Assembly: GCF_032116555.1 (NCBI RefSeq)
Contig: NZ_CP134949.1
Span: forward strand, 248,001-312,000
DNA length: 64,000 nt
DNA from: Halobaculum sp. XH14
GTDB taxonomy: Archaea; Halobacteriota; Halobacteria; Halobacteriales; Haloferacaceae
Direction: 5' to 3'
A model generated the notes under the pieces. That model saw only the letters and a program-made list of their open reading frames with translations, ran no database searches and was not told the origin of the DNA. This document shows, piece after piece, positions 41,739 through 48,530 of the stretch (positions are counted from its first letter, which is position 1; each line of letters opens with the position of its first letter). Position numbers and translations under genes: made by a program.

Positions 41739-41868
41739 AACTCCGCAACCGAGACGTAAAAACCCCGCTTTGAGGAGCGCCGCCCTCGACGCCCGGTTCC
41801 CAGCCAGCCCGGAATACGGCCCGCACCTTCCACACGCTTTTCTACGCACCCACCCCCATCGGACAACG

Positions 41869-43050
41869 ATGACCGACGCGTACCTCGTCGGGGCCGGGCA
41901 GTCGCCGTTCGGGTCGTTCCCGGACGAGACGTACCGCTCGCTGTTCGACACGGCGTTCGACCGGGCGCTCGCGAGCGTCGACGGCGACCTCGACCCCGAC
42001 CGGATCGACGAGGCGTTCCTCGGCACGCTCGGCGTCGGCGGGAGACAGATCGGGCTGAGCGCGCCCGCCGTCACCGAGCACGTCGGCCTCCACGCGATTC
42101 CGACGACGCGTGTCGAGAACGCCTGCGCGTCCAGCGGCTACGCGCTCCGGAGCGCCGTCGCGGCCGTCCGGGCCGGGATGGCCGACCTCGTCCTCGCGGG
42201 CGGCTACGAGGTGATGACCGACACCAGCGCCGACCGGACGAAGTGGTGGCTCGGCGTCTCCGGCGAGACCGAGTGGGAGCGCCTCTCCGGGACGACGTTC
42301 GCCGGCGTCTACGCCCAGATGGCCAGCGCCCACATGAACGAGTACGGGACGACGACGGAGGACCTCTCCCGGGTCGCCGTCAAGAACCACGCCAACGGCG
42401 CCGAGAACCCCGACGCCCACCTCGGCTTCGAGTGTTCGCTGGAGGACGCCATGGACGCCCCCGCGGTCGCCGACCCGCTGAACCTCTATCACTGCTGTCC
42501 GACGACCGACGGCGCGAGCGCGGTGCTCGTCGCGAGCGGGGACGTCGCCCGGGAACTGAGCGACGACCCCGTCCGCGTCGCCGGCGTCGGCGCCGCCAGC
42601 GGCCGGGTCGGTCTGTTCCAGCGCCCCGGCCTGGCGTCGATTCCAGCGACCCGGACGGCCGCCGAGCGGGCCTACGGGGCGGCCGGCATCGACGACCCGG
42701 CCGGGGACCTCGACTTCGCGGAGGTCCACGACTGCTTCGCAATCGCCGAACTGCTCGCATACGAGGACCTCGGCTTCTGTGATCCGGGCGAGTCCGGTCG
42801 ACTGCTCCGCGAGGGGCGGACCGACCCGGACGGCGACCTCCCCGTCAACACCTCCGGCGGGCTGAAATCGAAGGGCCACCCCATCGGCGCGACCGGCACA
42901 GGACAGGCGGTCGAGGCGTTCAAGCAGCTCCGCGGCGAGGCCGCGGTGCAGGTCGCGGACCCGGTCCGCGGGCTGGCCCACAACGTCGGCGGCTCCGGCG
43001 GCGGCGTCACCGTCCACGTGTTCGAGCGGGCCGCGGAGGTGGACGCGTGA
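41869..43050 (+). CDS. Thiolase (acetyl-CoA C-acyltransferase family)
   Basis: 393 residues from ATG 41869. The acyl-binding Cys lies in VENACASSGYALRSAVAAVR (near residue 86). VHDCFAIAELLAYEDLG and SGGLKSKGHPIGATGTGQA supply the catalytic His blocks of SCP2-type thiolases. Archaeal members of this group act in a complex with an HMG-CoA-synthase-like protein and a DUF35 protein, channelling acetoacetyl-CoA toward mevalonate. Here the next gene overlaps by 4 nt and fuses both of those partner domains, so the two products very likely work together. Confidence 0.9.
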   Translation: MTDAYLVGAGQSPFGSFPDETYRSLFDTAFDRALASVDGDLDPDRIDEAFLGTLGVGGRQIGLSAPAVTEHVGLHAIPTTRVENACASSGYALRSAVAAVRAGMADLVLAGGYEVMTDTSADRTKWWLGVSGETEWERLSGTTFAGVYAQMASAHMNEYGTTTEDLSRVAVKNHANGAENPDAHLGFECSLEDAMDAPAVADPLNLYHCCPTTDGASAVLVASGDVARELSDDPVRVAGVGAASGRVGLFQRPGLASIPATRTAAERAYGAAGIDDPAGDLDFAEVHDCFAIAELLAYEDLGFCDPGESGRLLREGRTDPDGDLPVNTSGGLKSKGHPIGATGTGQAVEAFKQLRGEAAVQVADPVRGLAHNVGGSGGGVTVHVFERAAEVDA

Positions 43051-44522
43051 ATCCCGATGCCGACGCCGAACGCGGCATCCTCGCGGCCGGGGTCTACGTC
43101 CCCCGCGCCAGACTCCCCGCCGAGACGGTCGCGGACGCGTGGGGCAGTTTCGAGGGCCGCGGCATCGACACGACCGCCGTCCCGGCGGGCGACGAGGATG
43201 CCGTGACGATGGGCGTCGCGGCGGCGGAACGGGCGTTCGAGGCGAACACCGCGACCGGAACGTCGCCCGATTCGCCGGACTCGGCGTCGGTCGCGCCCGA
43301 CGAGGTCGGGACGCTCGCGTTCGCCACCACGACGCCGCCGCTGGAGGAGGAGCAACTCGGGCCGCGACTCGTCCGGGCGCTCGGCCTCCCGGACTCCTGC
43401 CGGACGTGGGAGCACGGCGGGAGCACCGCAGCGGGCGCGGACGCCATCCAGACCGCTCTCGACGCCGACGGCCCGGCGCTCGCGGTCGTCGCGGACGCGC
43501 CGGAGGGTGACCCGGCCGGCGAGGGCCACGCGTTCGGCGCGGGCGCCGCGGCGTTCCTCGTCGCCGACGACGCCCTCGTCCCCTGCGAGGCGGTCGCGGC
43601 CGCGACCGACGAGTCGCCCGGCATCCGGTTCCGGGAGCGCGGCGCGACCGACCTCGACTCGCTCGACGTGACCGGGTACGAGCGCGCGGCGACCCGCGAG
43701 ACGACCCGCCGGGCCATCGCCGACCTTGACGTCGACCCGGACGAAATCCGCGCCGCGGCGGTCCACCAGCCGAACGGGTCGATGCCGTCCCGCATCGCGG
43801 ACGGGGACGTCGTCCCCGCGGACGCCGTCTCGGCGGGACTGGTCGCGGACCGCGTCGGCGACGCGGGGGCGGCGACGGTTCCGATGGGCCTCGTCGAGGC
43901 GCTTTCGACCCCGGGCGACGGCCCCGTCCTCGCGGCGTTCTTCGGGAGCGGCGGGAGCGCCGTCGCGTTCTCGTTCGCCGGCGAACTCGACGCGGTGGCC
44001 GGGACCGACTTCGACGACGGCGTCGCCGTCGAGTACGCCGAGTCCCTCCGCAAGCGCGGTCGCCTCGGCGACGGCGAGGTCGCCGGGGGCGGCGCGAACG
44101 TCTCGCTGCCGAACTGGCGGCGGACGCTCGACGCCCGCTACGCGCTGACCGCCGGGCGCTGTCCCGAGTGCGGGACGCTCTCGTTCCCGGGCGAGGGCGC
44201 CTGCGGGGGCTGTCACGAGCGGGTCGAGTACGAGCGGGTGTCGCTCTCCCGGGAGGGGACCGTCGAGGCGCGGACGGTCATCGGCCAGGGCGGCGCGCCC
44301 CCGGAGTTCGTCGCCCTCCAGCGCCGCGAGGGCGACTACGCGGCGGTCCTCGTCCGACTCCCCGCGAGCGAGGCGGACGGGTCGGTGGTGCTGCCCGCCC
44401 AGGTGACCGACTGCGACCCCGACGCCGTCGAGGTGGGCGACTCGGTCCGCCGGACCGTCCGTCGGATCTACGACCAGGAGGGCGTCCCGCGGTACGGCGC
44501 GAAGTTCAAGCCGACGGGATAG
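43047..44522 (+). CDS. HMG-CoA-synthase-like domain fused to DUF35 (zinc ribbon-OB fold)
   Basis: 491 residues from GTG 43047, overlapping the thiolase stop (GTGA). Residues 1-340 resemble HMG-CoA synthase/KAS III thiolase folds (GILAAGVYVPRARLPAETVA; TLAFATTTPPLEEEQLGPRL; AAAVHQPNGSMPSRIA). Where HMGS has its nucleophile (roughly ACKAGTAA), this protein reads WEHGGSTAAGADAI, with no Cys. The C-terminal 130 residues are DUF35: zinc ribbon CPEC/CGGCH, then an OB fold (VEARTVIGQGGAPPEFVALQ). The fusion mirrors the archaeal thiolase-HMGS-DUF35 complex, but loss of the Cys suggests a scaffold or a different chemistry. Confidence 0.85.
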   Translation: MNPDADAERGILAAGVYVPRARLPAETVADAWGSFEGRGIDTTAVPAGDEDAVTMGVAAAERAFEANTATGTSPDSPDSASVAPDEVGTLAFATTTPPLEEEQLGPRLVRALGLPDSCRTWEHGGSTAAGADAIQTALDADGPALAVVADAPEGDPAGEGHAFGAGAAAFLVADDALVPCEAVAAATDESPGIRFRERGATDLDSLDVTGYERAATRETTRRAIADLDVDPDEIRAAAVHQPNGSMPSRIADGDVVPADAVSAGLVADRVGDAGAATVPMGLVEALSTPGDGPVLAAFFGSGGSAVAFSFAGELDAVAGTDFDDGVAVEYAESLRKRGRLGDGEVAGGGANVSLPNWRRTLDARYALTAGRCPECGTLSFPGEGACGGCHERVEYERVSLSREGTVEARTVIGQGGAPPEFVALQRREGDYAAVLVRLPASEADGSVVLPAQVTDCDPDAVEVGDSVRRTVRRIYDQEGVPRYGAKFKPTG

Positions 44523-44539
44523 CCGACGGTGACGACGAA

Positions 44540-45775
44540 TCAGTGGGTGTCGTCGTCCCAGGTTTCCTCGTCCCACCCCGCGAGCGCGCGGTGTTCCTCG
44601 GCCACGGCAGCGACGGCGTCGACGTCGAGCGGGCCGTCCTCGGTGACGACGGTGACCAGGTTCGAGGGTGTCCGGTCGAACAGCGGGGCGAACGACTCGA
44701 CCCCTGCCGGGACATCGAACCCGGCCGACCCGGGATGGAACGAGTCGGTGCCCGAAATCTTGTCCCGGGCGGTCACGGCGTAGCAGGGGACGCCCTCGCG
44801 GGCGGCCGCGAGCGCCAGCCCCCGCGTCCCGACCTTGTTCGCCACGTCGCCGTCCGGGAACACCGTGTCGGCGCCGACGAGCGCCGCGTCGACCACGTCC
44901 TCGGCCAGCACGGCGGGGACGGCGGCGTTGGGCAGCAGCGTCACCTCCCGGTCGGCCGCGGCCAGCTCCGCCGCGACGTCGCGCCCCTCGCCGCCCGGGC
45001 GCGATTCGGCGACGAACACTCGTTCGTCGTGGTCGGCGAGCGCCGCGGCGACGGTGCCCGATCGCGAGAGCGTGAGAACTGCACCGTCGAGCAGCGTCGC
45101 CGCCTCGGTTGCCGCGGCCTCGTCGGCGTTCACGGCGGCCTCGACGGCCGCGATGGCGCGGTCGCGGACCGCCGCGGGCGTCCGCTCGGCACCGGCCACG
45201 ACGCGGTTCACGCGGTTCGAGAGCGCTGCCATCCCCGGCCGCGCGTCCCGGAGGGCCCGCGCGGCGTCGGCGACGGCGTCCCACGACTCGGCGACGGCCG
45301 CCTCGTCGCGCAGCGCCTCCAGCGCACGGACGGAGACGTCCGAGGAGCCGTGCGTGTCGTCGTCCCGGACCGTCTCGAGGGTCGGGCCGACCGCGCGGTA
45401 CGCCGCCCAGAGCTTCGGCACCGTCTCGCGCCCCAGCATGGCCGTCGCGGGCACCCACTCGTGGGCCGCGAGTTCCTCGTTTTTCGTCACCTCGCGCGTC
45501 GCGCACTCGAACAGGAACGGGTGGACGGTGAACGTCCCCTCGGCGTCGTCTACCGCTACCGGGTCGCCGGCGCGGACGAGCGTCAGGGCCGACCCCTCGA
45601 CGCCGACTTCCTCCTCGACCTCGCGGCACGCGTCCGCGAGCGGGTCGTCCGTGTCGTCCTCGACGTAGCCGGAGACGCCGCCCCACTGCCCGCGGTAGGT
45701 GCCGACCGCGTCGCCCCGGCGGACCAGCAGCACCTCGCCGCGGTTCCGGAGGAAGGCGGTGACGACGTGGGCCAT
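44540..45775 (-). CDS. NUDIX domain fused to eIF2B-alpha/R15P-isomerase-like domain
   Basis: 411 residues from ATG 45775. Residues 1-135 are a NUDIX hydrolase domain (VVTAFLRNRGEVLLVRRG; GGVSGYVEDD; CREVEEEVGV). From about residue 150 an eIF2B/MtnA/ribose-1,5-bisphosphate isomerase-type domain follows: VLTLSRSGTVAAALADHDER, VFVAESRPGGEGRDVAAELA, GADTVFPDGDVANKVGTRGL and YAVTARDKI. The substrate-contact ESRP and GAD...NK.GT motifs are retained, but the THCNS catalytic-Cys segment of R15P isomerase reads TLSRS. It converges with the DUF35 fusion gene 17 nt away. A nucleotide- or sugar-phosphate-sensing or salvage enzyme is plausible; the function is unknown. Confidence 0.85.
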   Translation of the reverse strand: MAHVVTAFLRNRGEVLLVRRGDAVGTYRGQWGGVSGYVEDDTDDPLADACREVEEEVGVEGSALTLVRAGDPVAVDDAEGTFTVHPFLFECATREVTKNEELAAHEWVPATAMLGRETVPKLWAAYRAVGPTLETVRDDDTHGSSDVSVRALEALRDEAAVAESWDAVADAARALRDARPGMAALSNRVNRVVAGAERTPAAVRDRAIAAVEAAVNADEAAATEAATLLDGAVLTLSRSGTVAAALADHDERVFVAESRPGGEGRDVAAELAAADREVTLLPNAAVPAVLAEDVVDAALVGADTVFPDGDVANKVGTRGLALAAAREGVPCYAVTARDKISGTDSFHPGSAGFDVPAGVESFAPLFDRTPSNLVTVVTEDGPLDVDAVAAVAEEHRALAGWDEETWDDDTH

Positions 45776-46574: not shown

Positions 46575-46747
46575 ACTCCACGGTTCGGGCTCCCGAGTGA
46601 AAACAGTACGTCAGCGCCGCTGCCGGGGACCCGGACGGTGACGTGACCGGGCGTCCAGTTTCGGCGTCGATCACGCCGGCACCGCTAGACACCGGACAGC
46701 CGTACCACCACCGGCGACCTTTTGCCACCGACGCACGACCGCCCGAT

Positions 46748-47503
46748 ATGGAACTGTTCGCCGTCCCCGACCTCCCCGAGATTCGGGAGGGCGAGGACCT
46801 CGCGGCCGCGATCCGCGACCGGGTCGACCTCCGCCCGGACGACGTGGTCTGTGTCGCCTCCACCGTCGTCTCGAAGGCCGAGGGGCGGACGTTCGACCTC
46901 GACGACTTCCCGCCCTCGGAGCGGGCCAGGGGGATCGCGTCCCGGCTCGAAGCGATCTCGGGCGAGGAGAAGGACCCCCGGTTCGCCCAGGCCGTCCTGG
47001 AGGAGTCCGACGAGCTGCTGCTGGAAGCCCCGTTCCTCCTCACGGCGACACGCTTCGGCCACGTCGGAGTCAACGCCGGCATCGACCGCTCGAACGTCCC
47101 GGCGGGTGACCTGCTGCTCCTCCCCGAGGATCCGACTGAGTCGGCCGAGCGGATCCGCGAGGGGCTGCCGGTCGATCGCGTGATCGTCACCGACACCTGC
47201 GGCCGGCCGTTCCGGCACGGCCAGCGCGGCGTCGCCGTCGGCTGGGCCGGCATGCACGCCTCCCGCGACTGGCGCGGCGAGACGGACCGCGACGGGCGCG
47301 AACTCGGCGTCACCGTCGAGAACGTCGTGGACGAACTCGCGGCCGCCGCGAACCTCCTCGCGGGCGAGGGCGACGGCGGCACCCCGGTCGTCGTCGTCCG
47401 CGACTTCGAGTGGGGCGCACACGGCGGCAGCGACGAGCACTTCCGCGCGGTCGAGGGCGACTTCGTGCGGCAGGCGCTGCAGGGGTGGGAGTTCGATGGG
47501 TGA
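46748..47503 (+). CDS. cofE: Coenzyme F420-0:L-glutamate ligase
   Basis: 251 residues from ATG 46748. The family blocks are MELFAVPDLPEIREGEDLAA, VVCVASTVVSKAEGRTFDLD, FGHVGVNAGIDRSNVPAGDL and VIVTDTCGRPFRHGQRGVAV. CofE adds glutamates to F420-0 with GTP. It overlaps the mer gene by 8 nt, directly linking F420 maturation with an F420-dependent reductase. A TTTTGCC box about 28 nt upstream of the ATG suggests a leaderless start. Confidence 0.95.
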   Translation: MELFAVPDLPEIREGEDLAAAIRDRVDLRPDDVVCVASTVVSKAEGRTFDLDDFPPSERARGIASRLEAISGEEKDPRFAQAVLEESDELLLEAPFLLTATRFGHVGVNAGIDRSNVPAGDLLLLPEDPTESAERIREGLPVDRVIVTDTCGRPFRHGQRGVAVGWAGMHASRDWRGETDRDGRELGVTVENVVDELAAAANLLAGEGDGGTPVVVVRDFEWGAHGGSDEHFRAVEGDFVRQALQGWEFDG

Positions 47504-48530
47504 GGACGACCCGTCCTCCGGCGCGGCCGTCGCCTCGCGGGGCGGCGGAATGTTCGGCCTCGAACTCACGCCCGAACACCCCGTCGAGCGCCTCGTCGAC
47601 CTGGGTACGACGGCCGAGGACGCGGGGTTCGACGCGGTGTTCGTCTCGCACCACTACAACAACCGGGACGCGTTCCAGGCGCTCGCCCGTATCGCCGCCG
47701 AGACCGACGCGGTCCGACTCGGCCCCGGCGTCGTCAACCCCCTCGAAACCCACCCCGTCACGCTCGCCTCCCGGGTCGCCACGCTCGACGAGTCCTCGGG
47801 CGGCCGCGCCGTGTACGGCGTCGGCCCCGGCGACCCGTCCTCGCTGCGGAACCTCGGCCTCGCCGAGGAGCGCGGCCTCCGCCCCGTGCTGGAGGCGTTC
47901 GAGGTCGCGCGGGACCTCTGGGCGGGCGAGCGCGTCGACGGCGCGAGCACGTTCGACGCCGACGACGCGGGGCTCAACTACGAACCGCCCCAGGGCGCGG
48001 CCATCCCGGCCTACGTCGGCGGCGAGGGGCCCCACATGTGCCGGATGGCCGGCAAGCGGGCCGACGGCCTGCTGTTCAACGGCTCGCACCCAGACGACCT
48101 GGCCTGGGCCCGCGAGCGCGTGGACGAGGGGCTCGCGGAGCGCTCGGACGGCGTCGACGCCGACGCGTTCGACCTCGCGGCGTACGCCTCGGTGTCGGTC
48201 TCCGCCGACGGCGAGGCGGCCAGGGACGCCGCCCGCCCGCCGGTCGCGTACATCACGGCCGGGGCCGCGCCGCCGGTGCTGGACCGGCACGACATCGACC
48301 CCGAGCGCGCCGCGCGGATCGGCGACGCCATCGCGGCCGGGGAGTTCTCGGAGGCGTTCGCGGCCGTGACGCCGGCGATGCTGGAGGCGTTCTGCATCGC
48401 CGGCACGCCCGACGAGGTGGGGAGGGAGATGAGAGCGGTGCTGGCGGAGGCTAACTCGCTGGTCGTCGGCTCGCCGATCGGTCCGGACCTGGCGGAGGGG
48501 ATCCGGCTGGCCGCCGAGGCGGCCCCGTAG
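47496..48530 (+). CDS. mer: F420-dependent 5,10-methylene-tetrahydropterin/folate reductase (Mer, luciferase-like)
   Basis: 344 residues. After a short Ser/Gly arm, FGLELTPEHPVERLVDLGTT and DAVFVSHHYNNRDAFQALAR open a bacterial-luciferase-like TIM barrel. GPGVVNPLETHPVTLASRVA and YGVGPGDPSSLRNLGL are typical of Mer, which reduces methylene-H4MPT or methylene-H4F with F420H2. In non-methanogenic haloarchaea it likely serves one-carbon metabolism in place of MetF. It starts 8 nt before the cofE stop, so the two are coupled. Other F420-dependent luciferase-like oxidoreductases are a minor alternative. Confidence 0.88.
   Translation: MGEDDPSSGAAVASRGGGMFGLELTPEHPVERLVDLGTTAEDAGFDAVFVSHHYNNRDAFQALARIAAETDAVRLGPGVVNPLETHPVTLASRVATLDESSGGRAVYGVGPGDPSSLRNLGLAEERGLRPVLEAFEVARDLWAGERVDGASTFDADDAGLNYEPPQGAAIPAYVGGEGPHMCRMAGKRADGLLFNGSHPDDLAWARERVDEGLAERSDGVDADAFDLAAYASVSVSADGEAARDAARPPVAYITAGAAPPVLDRHDIDPERAARIGDAIAAGEFSEAFAAVTPAMLEAFCIAGTPDEVGREMRAVLAEANSLVVGSPIGPDLAEGIRLAAEAAP

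Follow-up and report, generated by a model that had tools for sequence, protein, structure and literature searches.

A gene in the stretch of Halobaculum sp. XH14 DNA analysed here (the window, 64,000 nucleotides) joins a NUDIX hydrolase domain to a relative of ribose-1,5-bisphosphate isomerase (R15Pi) that carries Ser in place of the catalytic Cys, and this raises the question of what the second domain does and what the hydrolase contributes to it. The gene (Table 1) encodes a product of 411 aa with no internal stop; its frame stays open further 5' (635 aa ORF), and the ATG at 45775 is the start that agrees with the starts of aligned relatives. The fusion of a NUDIX hydrolase to an eIF2B/R15Pi-like domain, proposed in a preliminary description of this DNA, is borne out by two Pfam domains within the one 411-aa frame: PF00293 at residues 5-113 (43.6 bits against a gathering cut-off of 21.1) and PF01008 at residues 141-382 (132.4 bits against 22.4). 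An AlphaFold model of the whole chain has a mean pLDDT of 94.9 and a pTM of 0.92. Its N-terminal part matches solved NUDIX chains with Z scores of 16.2-16.8, and the top PDB match of its C-terminal part is the Pyrococcus horikoshii R15P isomerase 5yfx (Z 30.7 over 272 residues), followed by the aIF2B-type protein 1vb5 (Z 29.1), eIF2B subunits and MtnA (Z about 27); another R15Pi structure, 5yfs, also matches the domain (E 1.6e-18). Pfam score and fold together thus place the C-terminal domain in the IF-2B superfamily.

Table 1. Coordinates of the fusion gene, its domains and its pocket residues in the window
Feature	Position	Strand	Basis
Fusion gene, NUDIX and IF-2B (eIF2B/R15Pi/MtnA) domains	44540..45775	-	translation, Pfam, AlphaFold model
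NUDIX domain, residues 1-127	45395..45775	-	Pfam PF00293, structure match
NUDIX box, residues 36-59, with Glu52, Glu55 and Glu56 of REUxEExGU	45599..45670	-	
IF-2B domain, residues 128-411	44543..45394	-	Pfam PF01008, PDB matches
His142, position of R15Pi Arg22 (1-phosphate contact)	45350..45352	-	PH0208 alignment
TLSRSGT, residues 235-241: Ser237, position of catalytic Cys135; Ser239, R15Pi Ser137 (5-phosphate contact)	45053..45073	-	
Glu263, position of R15Pi Gln166 (1-phosphate contact)	44987..44989	-	PH0208 alignment
Asp303, R15Pi catalytic Asp204	44867..44869	-	PH0208 alignment
Asn313-Lys314, R15Pi Asn214-Lys215 (sugar contacts)	44834..44839	-	PH0208 alignment
Lys339, R15Pi Lys240 (5-phosphate contact)	44759..44761	-	PH0208 alignment

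The fusion is not an annotation error, because 105 of 146 haloarchaeal genomes have the IF-2B domain (profile search at E 1e-60; 99 of the 122 good genomes) and 99 of the 146 have the NUDIX domain (profile search at E 1e-8). A frame artefact is likewise ruled out by in-frame relatives across the haloarchaea, by purifying selection on the NUDIX domain and by the confident full-chain model. A plain protein search gave matches in 133 of the 146 genomes of the order, weak paralogue matches included. The 105-genome set used below for residue counts comprises every genome over E 1e-60 among the 146 sampled and is a lower bound; G058, G087, G095, G111 and G121, for example, have a NUDIX or partial match and no IF-2B match at that threshold. 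A further set of 81 sequences, made up of the window protein and the best 80 of 227 loci in named genomes, is biased towards intact forms and contains eight rows from metagenome-assembled genomes (MAGs), two of them labelled bacterial; all but two of the best 80 loci are labelled haloarchaea. Haloarchaeal-type fusions with 43 and 47% identity are present in MAGs labelled Rhodothermia and Bacteroidetes (L102 and L112), possibly on mis-binned contigs.

The ligand pocket was read by aligning the fusion family to the Pyrococcus R15Pi PH0208, with ligand residues as named in PMC5789824. At PH0208 positions 22, 65, 135, 137, 166, 204, 214, 215 and 240, the R15P isomerases in the alignment carry R, R, C, S, Q, D, N, K and K, and the window fusion carries H, R, S, S, E, D, N, K and K. 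The segments ESRP, GAD...NKVGT and TLSRS (within TLSRSGT) are present as first described, and the missing catalytic Cys reported with them proves to be a family trait, with Ser at that position in every one of the 105 members. Ser237, Ser239, Glu263, Asn313, Lys314 and Lys339 are each found in 105/105 members and Asp303 in 104, the exception being an alignment gap; Arg179, at the position of R15Pi Arg65, is Arg in 101 members and Lys in four, and His142 is His in 99 and Arg in three. Lys339 is also kept in 80 of the 81 sequences of the named-genome set. A catalytic Cys elsewhere in the active site, named in advance as counter-evidence, was set aside, as no Cys occupies an invariant or nearly invariant column in an alignment of 42 fusions.

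All R15Pi contacts to the 5-phosphate and the sugar (Ser137, Lys240, Asp204, Asn214 and Lys215) are therefore retained in the fusion, in keeping with the earlier suggestion of a phosphorylated ribose as ligand. Two of the four 1-phosphate side-chain contacts are altered (Arg22 to His and Gln166 to Glu) and the other two, Arg65 and Lys215, are kept. The C135S variant of PH0208 is inactive, yet binds R15P (Kd 13.8 µM) and RuBP (7.5 µM), whereas C135A fails to bind R15P (PMC5789824); a natural Ser at this position therefore fits a binding pocket, but not the known R15Pi reaction. A comparable state exists in eIF2B-alpha, which lacks the catalytic Cys, retains the 5-phosphate and sugar contacts and has lost the 1-phosphate contacts (PMC5789824), and whose ancestral catalytic site is occupied by sugar phosphates (PMC8187479). 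Unlike the fusion, eIF2B-alpha has Ala or Gly rather than Ser at the Cys site (PMC5789824), is a subunit of a decameric GEF and has no NUDIX domain, and sugar-phosphate binding, known for eIF2B-alpha, is a prediction for the fusion.

A profile comparison with the eIF2B, MtnA and R15Pi subfamilies, proposed at the outset, places the fusion below every subfamily cut-off and above that of PF01008. It scores 55.7 bits against the R15P isomerase model TIGR00511 (cut-off 314.1; the R15Pi paralogue from the same genome, L001, scores 469.8), 64.5 against the MtnA model TIGR00512 (cut-off 279), and 50.5 and 75.8 against the aIF2B/eIF2B regulatory subunit models PRK08335 and PRK06372 (cut-offs 339 and 249). 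The genome encodes three IF-2B proteins: L001, which has the Cys, a third type with Asp there (L002) and the fusion. In a tree of 50 IF-2B sequences, rooted on R15Pi by choice, the R15P isomerases form one group (100/99), the third haloarchaeal type another (100/100), and the fusions a further one (91/83) together with NUDIX-less proteins and the separate IF-2B proteins of G170 and G179 described below. Haloarchaeal R15P isomerases nest within the R15Pi group, and the fusion therefore did not arise by recent inactivation of one of them. The fusion shares with R15Pi (PH0208/TK0185) the fold (Z 30.7), the five 5-phosphate and sugar contacts and Arg65, but differs from it in having neither the catalytic Cys135 nor the Arg22 and Gln166 contacts to the 1-phosphate, in the added NUDIX domain and in its separate tree group. 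The third type, which by elimination is HVO_2706-like, resembles the fusion in its His at the Arg22 position and in Ser137, Asp204, Asn214 and Lys240, but has Asp at the Cys site, Asn at Arg65, Leu or Ile at Gln166, Arg at Lys215 and its own tree group.

Counterparts of the two domains are encoded separately in G170, a genome from another class of the phylum, where ORFs for a NUDIX protein (136 aa) and an IF-2B protein (300 aa) share a strand and have an overlap of 19 bp; the congener G179 has the same gene order at a contig edge. Outside the order, the NUDIX protein of G170 gives the highest score (132 bits), ahead of that of G307 (110). In the IF-2B protein of G170 the catalytic Cys is again replaced by Ser, Lys215 by Gly and Gln166 by Tyr. 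The protein scores 120.9 bits against the family profile, with many R15Pi-type proteins scoring higher (up to 145.8); given this score and the Gly and Tyr substitutions, its kinship to the fusions rests on the 91/83 branch. Two full MCR-alpha-type matches and one fragment suggest that G170 is a methane- or alkane-metabolising archaeon. On the same strand, genes for a type I phosphodiesterase/nucleotide pyrophosphatase and a UPF0047 protein precede the pair (L154 3126-6137), possibly as an operon. The gene after the pair encodes a PMSR-SelR methionine sulfoxide reductase. In G307, a standalone NUDIX gene (L156 6549-7076) matches the subfamily profile with 109 bits, and its 13-kb contig gave no IF-2B match.

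The canonical NUDIX motif has a G-to-R spacing one residue shorter than the box of the window fusion, in which Glu52, Glu55 and Glu56 are all present. Across the family, 66 of 105 members have all three of these glutamates and 39 have an incomplete set or none, with an invariant IF-2B pocket throughout. Among the 39, 21 have none of the glutamates (five of these show gaps throughout), four lack one only and one (G010) has a frame break; Pro86 and Trp107 are nevertheless still kept in 33. In G022, G045 and G116, all of one genus, the IF-2B protein stands alone, with no NUDIX part detected. Box state changed at least 15 times on a quick tree of the IF-2B domain, or 14 times when the box was scored by motif search and 12 times when only members without two or three glutamates were counted (35/105); these counts are minima on that quick tree, and its supported branches alone give seven independent pairs.

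Between close pairs, which share members and so are not independent, the median NUDIX dN/dS is 0.19 where the box is intact (37 pairs) and 0.42 where it is lost (11 pairs), while that of the IF-2B domain stays at 0.30 and 0.29, respectively. The NUDIX domain is thus under purifying selection and remains constrained even when decayed. With the IF-2B value steady, this contrast suggests that NUDIX catalysis is likely real where the box is intact and dispensable overall, the NUDIX half appearing from the sequences to be facultative. An AlphaFold model of a NUDIX-degenerate member has a mean pLDDT of 95.0, although the alignment behind it included intact relatives, which makes it weak evidence of folding. 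Substrate inference from PDB sequence matches was set aside, as these were weak and mixed. A Pro follows the box in the relevant column in 60 of the 81 sequences, at a distance of 11-14 residues in all but one of the 60, which resembles ADP-ribose pyrophosphatases; the spacing rule is not cleanly matched, so this assignment was not used. A defence-system library gave a single weak match, PDC-S07, covering the NUDIX part only.

Taken with the eIF2B-alpha precedent, these features suggest that the IF-2B domain, the likely core of the protein, is most likely a sugar-5-phosphate-binding relative of R15Pi without its activity. It would hold the 5-phosphate of a ribose-5-phosphate-type ligand through Ser239 and Lys339 and the sugar through Asp303, Asn313 and Lys314, and the known Cys-dependent isomerisation would be out of its reach. 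With His and Glu now in place of the Arg22 and Gln166 contacts, the ligand probably has no C1 phosphate, but one could still fit, since Arg65 (R/K) and Lys215, both 1-phosphate contacts, are retained. By analogy with eIF2B-alpha and its sugar phosphates, the domain would most likely bind a metabolite in a sensor or regulatory role. The NUDIX domain would be an accessory hydrolase that acts on a nucleoside-diphosphate-type compound in members with an intact box, and that elsewhere has repeatedly disappeared or decayed to a partner without catalysis. As a whole explanation, we consider a ligand-binding regulatory domain with a NUDIX add-on about evenly balanced between right and wrong. The preliminary description had left open whether the NUDIX domain feeds or senses a phosphorylated ribose or nucleotide; sensing is favoured here, and feeding an isomerase as a general role is opposed by the incomplete or absent box in 39/105 members with an invariant pocket.

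The invariant Ser237 and Glu263 are equally typical of an active site and count against a pure sensor. The IF-2B domain might instead be an enzyme that catalyses a new kind of reaction at the C1 of ribose-5-phosphate compounds, for example the isomerisation or hydrolysis of a C1-substituted ribose-5-phosphate, acting through Ser237, Glu263 and Asp303 with His142. In R15Pi the replaced residues are the catalytic Cys and two contacts to the 1-phosphate, which places them at the C1 end of its pocket, and it is conceivable, if doubtful, that this Arg/Gln/Cys site was rebuilt as a nearly fixed His/Glu/Ser site for a different reaction, with a NUDIX domain attached and then often silenced. No reaction is known, however, and the constellation is unshared, the third haloarchaeal type having Asp at the Cys site and Leu or Ile at the Gln site and G170 having Tyr at the latter; eIF2B-alpha moreover keeps the pocket on the same scaffold without a catalytic Cys. 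We favour the regulatory role and regard a new enzyme as the less probable of the two. Less probable again is a two-step salvage enzyme in which the NUDIX domain cuts ADP-ribose or a similar compound to ribose-5-phosphate and the second domain binds or converts it. The single polypeptide, the overlapping genes of G170 and a pocket suited to a 5-phosphate would agree with such a scheme, as would the more frequent R15Pi in members with an intact box (44/66 against 13/39; Fisher p 0.0012), but this association is gone after tree correction (median p 0.5 over seven pairs, the differing pairs being too few to reach 0.05). The box or the whole domain is also deficient in 39/105 members with the pocket unchanged, and the PDB matches gave no usable NUDIX substrate. 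Family presence as such is not significantly associated with R15Pi in the 146 genomes (57 with both, 48 with the family only, 16 with R15Pi only and 25 with neither; Fisher p 0.14), and the R15Pi association was set aside.

A role as an archaeal translation factor, the counterpart of an eIF2B regulatory subunit, seems very unlikely. The fold is common to eIF2B alpha, beta and delta, and the Haloferax volcanii protein HVO_1934 (43.2 kDa), annotated as a NUDIX family hydrolase/eIF-2B domain protein, goes under the name aIF2Bsu and was recovered when RpoB2 served as bait (PMC8576121). The excerpted text of that paper, however, gives one or two interactions with other factors and no reciprocal co-isolation among the three putative subunits, the fusion scores far under the IF-2B subunit cut-offs, and single deletion of HVO_1934 is described as giving wild-type-like growth with no phenotype under 12 conditions (PMC3828320). 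HVO_1934 has the same annotated architecture as the window fusion; its own sequence lies outside our alignment, and its orthology is inferred from annotation and genus, Haloferax fusions at eleven other loci having a NUDIX box that is intact and nine pocket residues identical to those of the window fusion. For the HVO_1934/HVO_2706 double deletion, the text of PMC3828320 and its Fig. 6 legend are at odds in the excerpts, the former giving wild-type-like growth under various conditions and the latter naming complex medium, sucrose and xylose as the panel with differences. Neither nucleoside nor ribose is mentioned in the main text of that paper.

The architecture is thus already annotated and widespread, and the protein has featured in earlier papers (PMC8576121 and PMC3828320). 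A search of the open-licence literature turned up no study of the family's pocket signature or of its NUDIX decay. R15P isomerase takes part in haloarchaeal nucleoside breakdown according to PMC9700705, from which the word NUDIX is absent, and PMC3225822 names a Mut-nudix protein that its excerpted text does not link to the fusion gene. This family is unusual in pairing a fixed, rebuilt sugar-phosphate pocket, which lacks the catalytic Cys, with a repeatedly silenced hydrolase domain. The core of eIF2B has a sugar-phosphate isomerase among its relatives, and in humans the former active site of eIF2B-alpha continues to bind sugar phosphates (PMC8187479). If our reading is true, the fusions, which show little sign so far of a translation role, would be a second, tractable case of a change from enzyme to sensor (or to new enzyme) in a widespread archaeal family. 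It predicts that a 5-phosphate sugar binds, that R15P is not isomerised and that NUDIX activity is dispensable.

The genomic neighbourhood offers no conserved operon partner among the 81 loci. A gene for an F420 gamma-glutamyl ligase (CofE-like) lies divergently upstream in 63 loci, and the commonest same-strand neighbour tested, a 2-hydroxyacid dehydrogenase gene in 43, is at least 128 bp downstream; both were read as synteny rather than as an operon with a pathway. Together with the absence of a phenotype in the HVO_1934 single deletion, this lack of a partner counts against the regulatory explanation that we favour. In the window, the F420 gamma-glutamyl ligase gene and a luciferase-like gene, presumably of the F420 type, are divergent from the fusion (46685-48530) with no evident link to it. 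Convergent to the fusion at 41770-44522 are a thiolase gene and a gene for a protein with a ChsH2-type zinc ribbon, an OB fold and a weak ketoacyl-synthase match.
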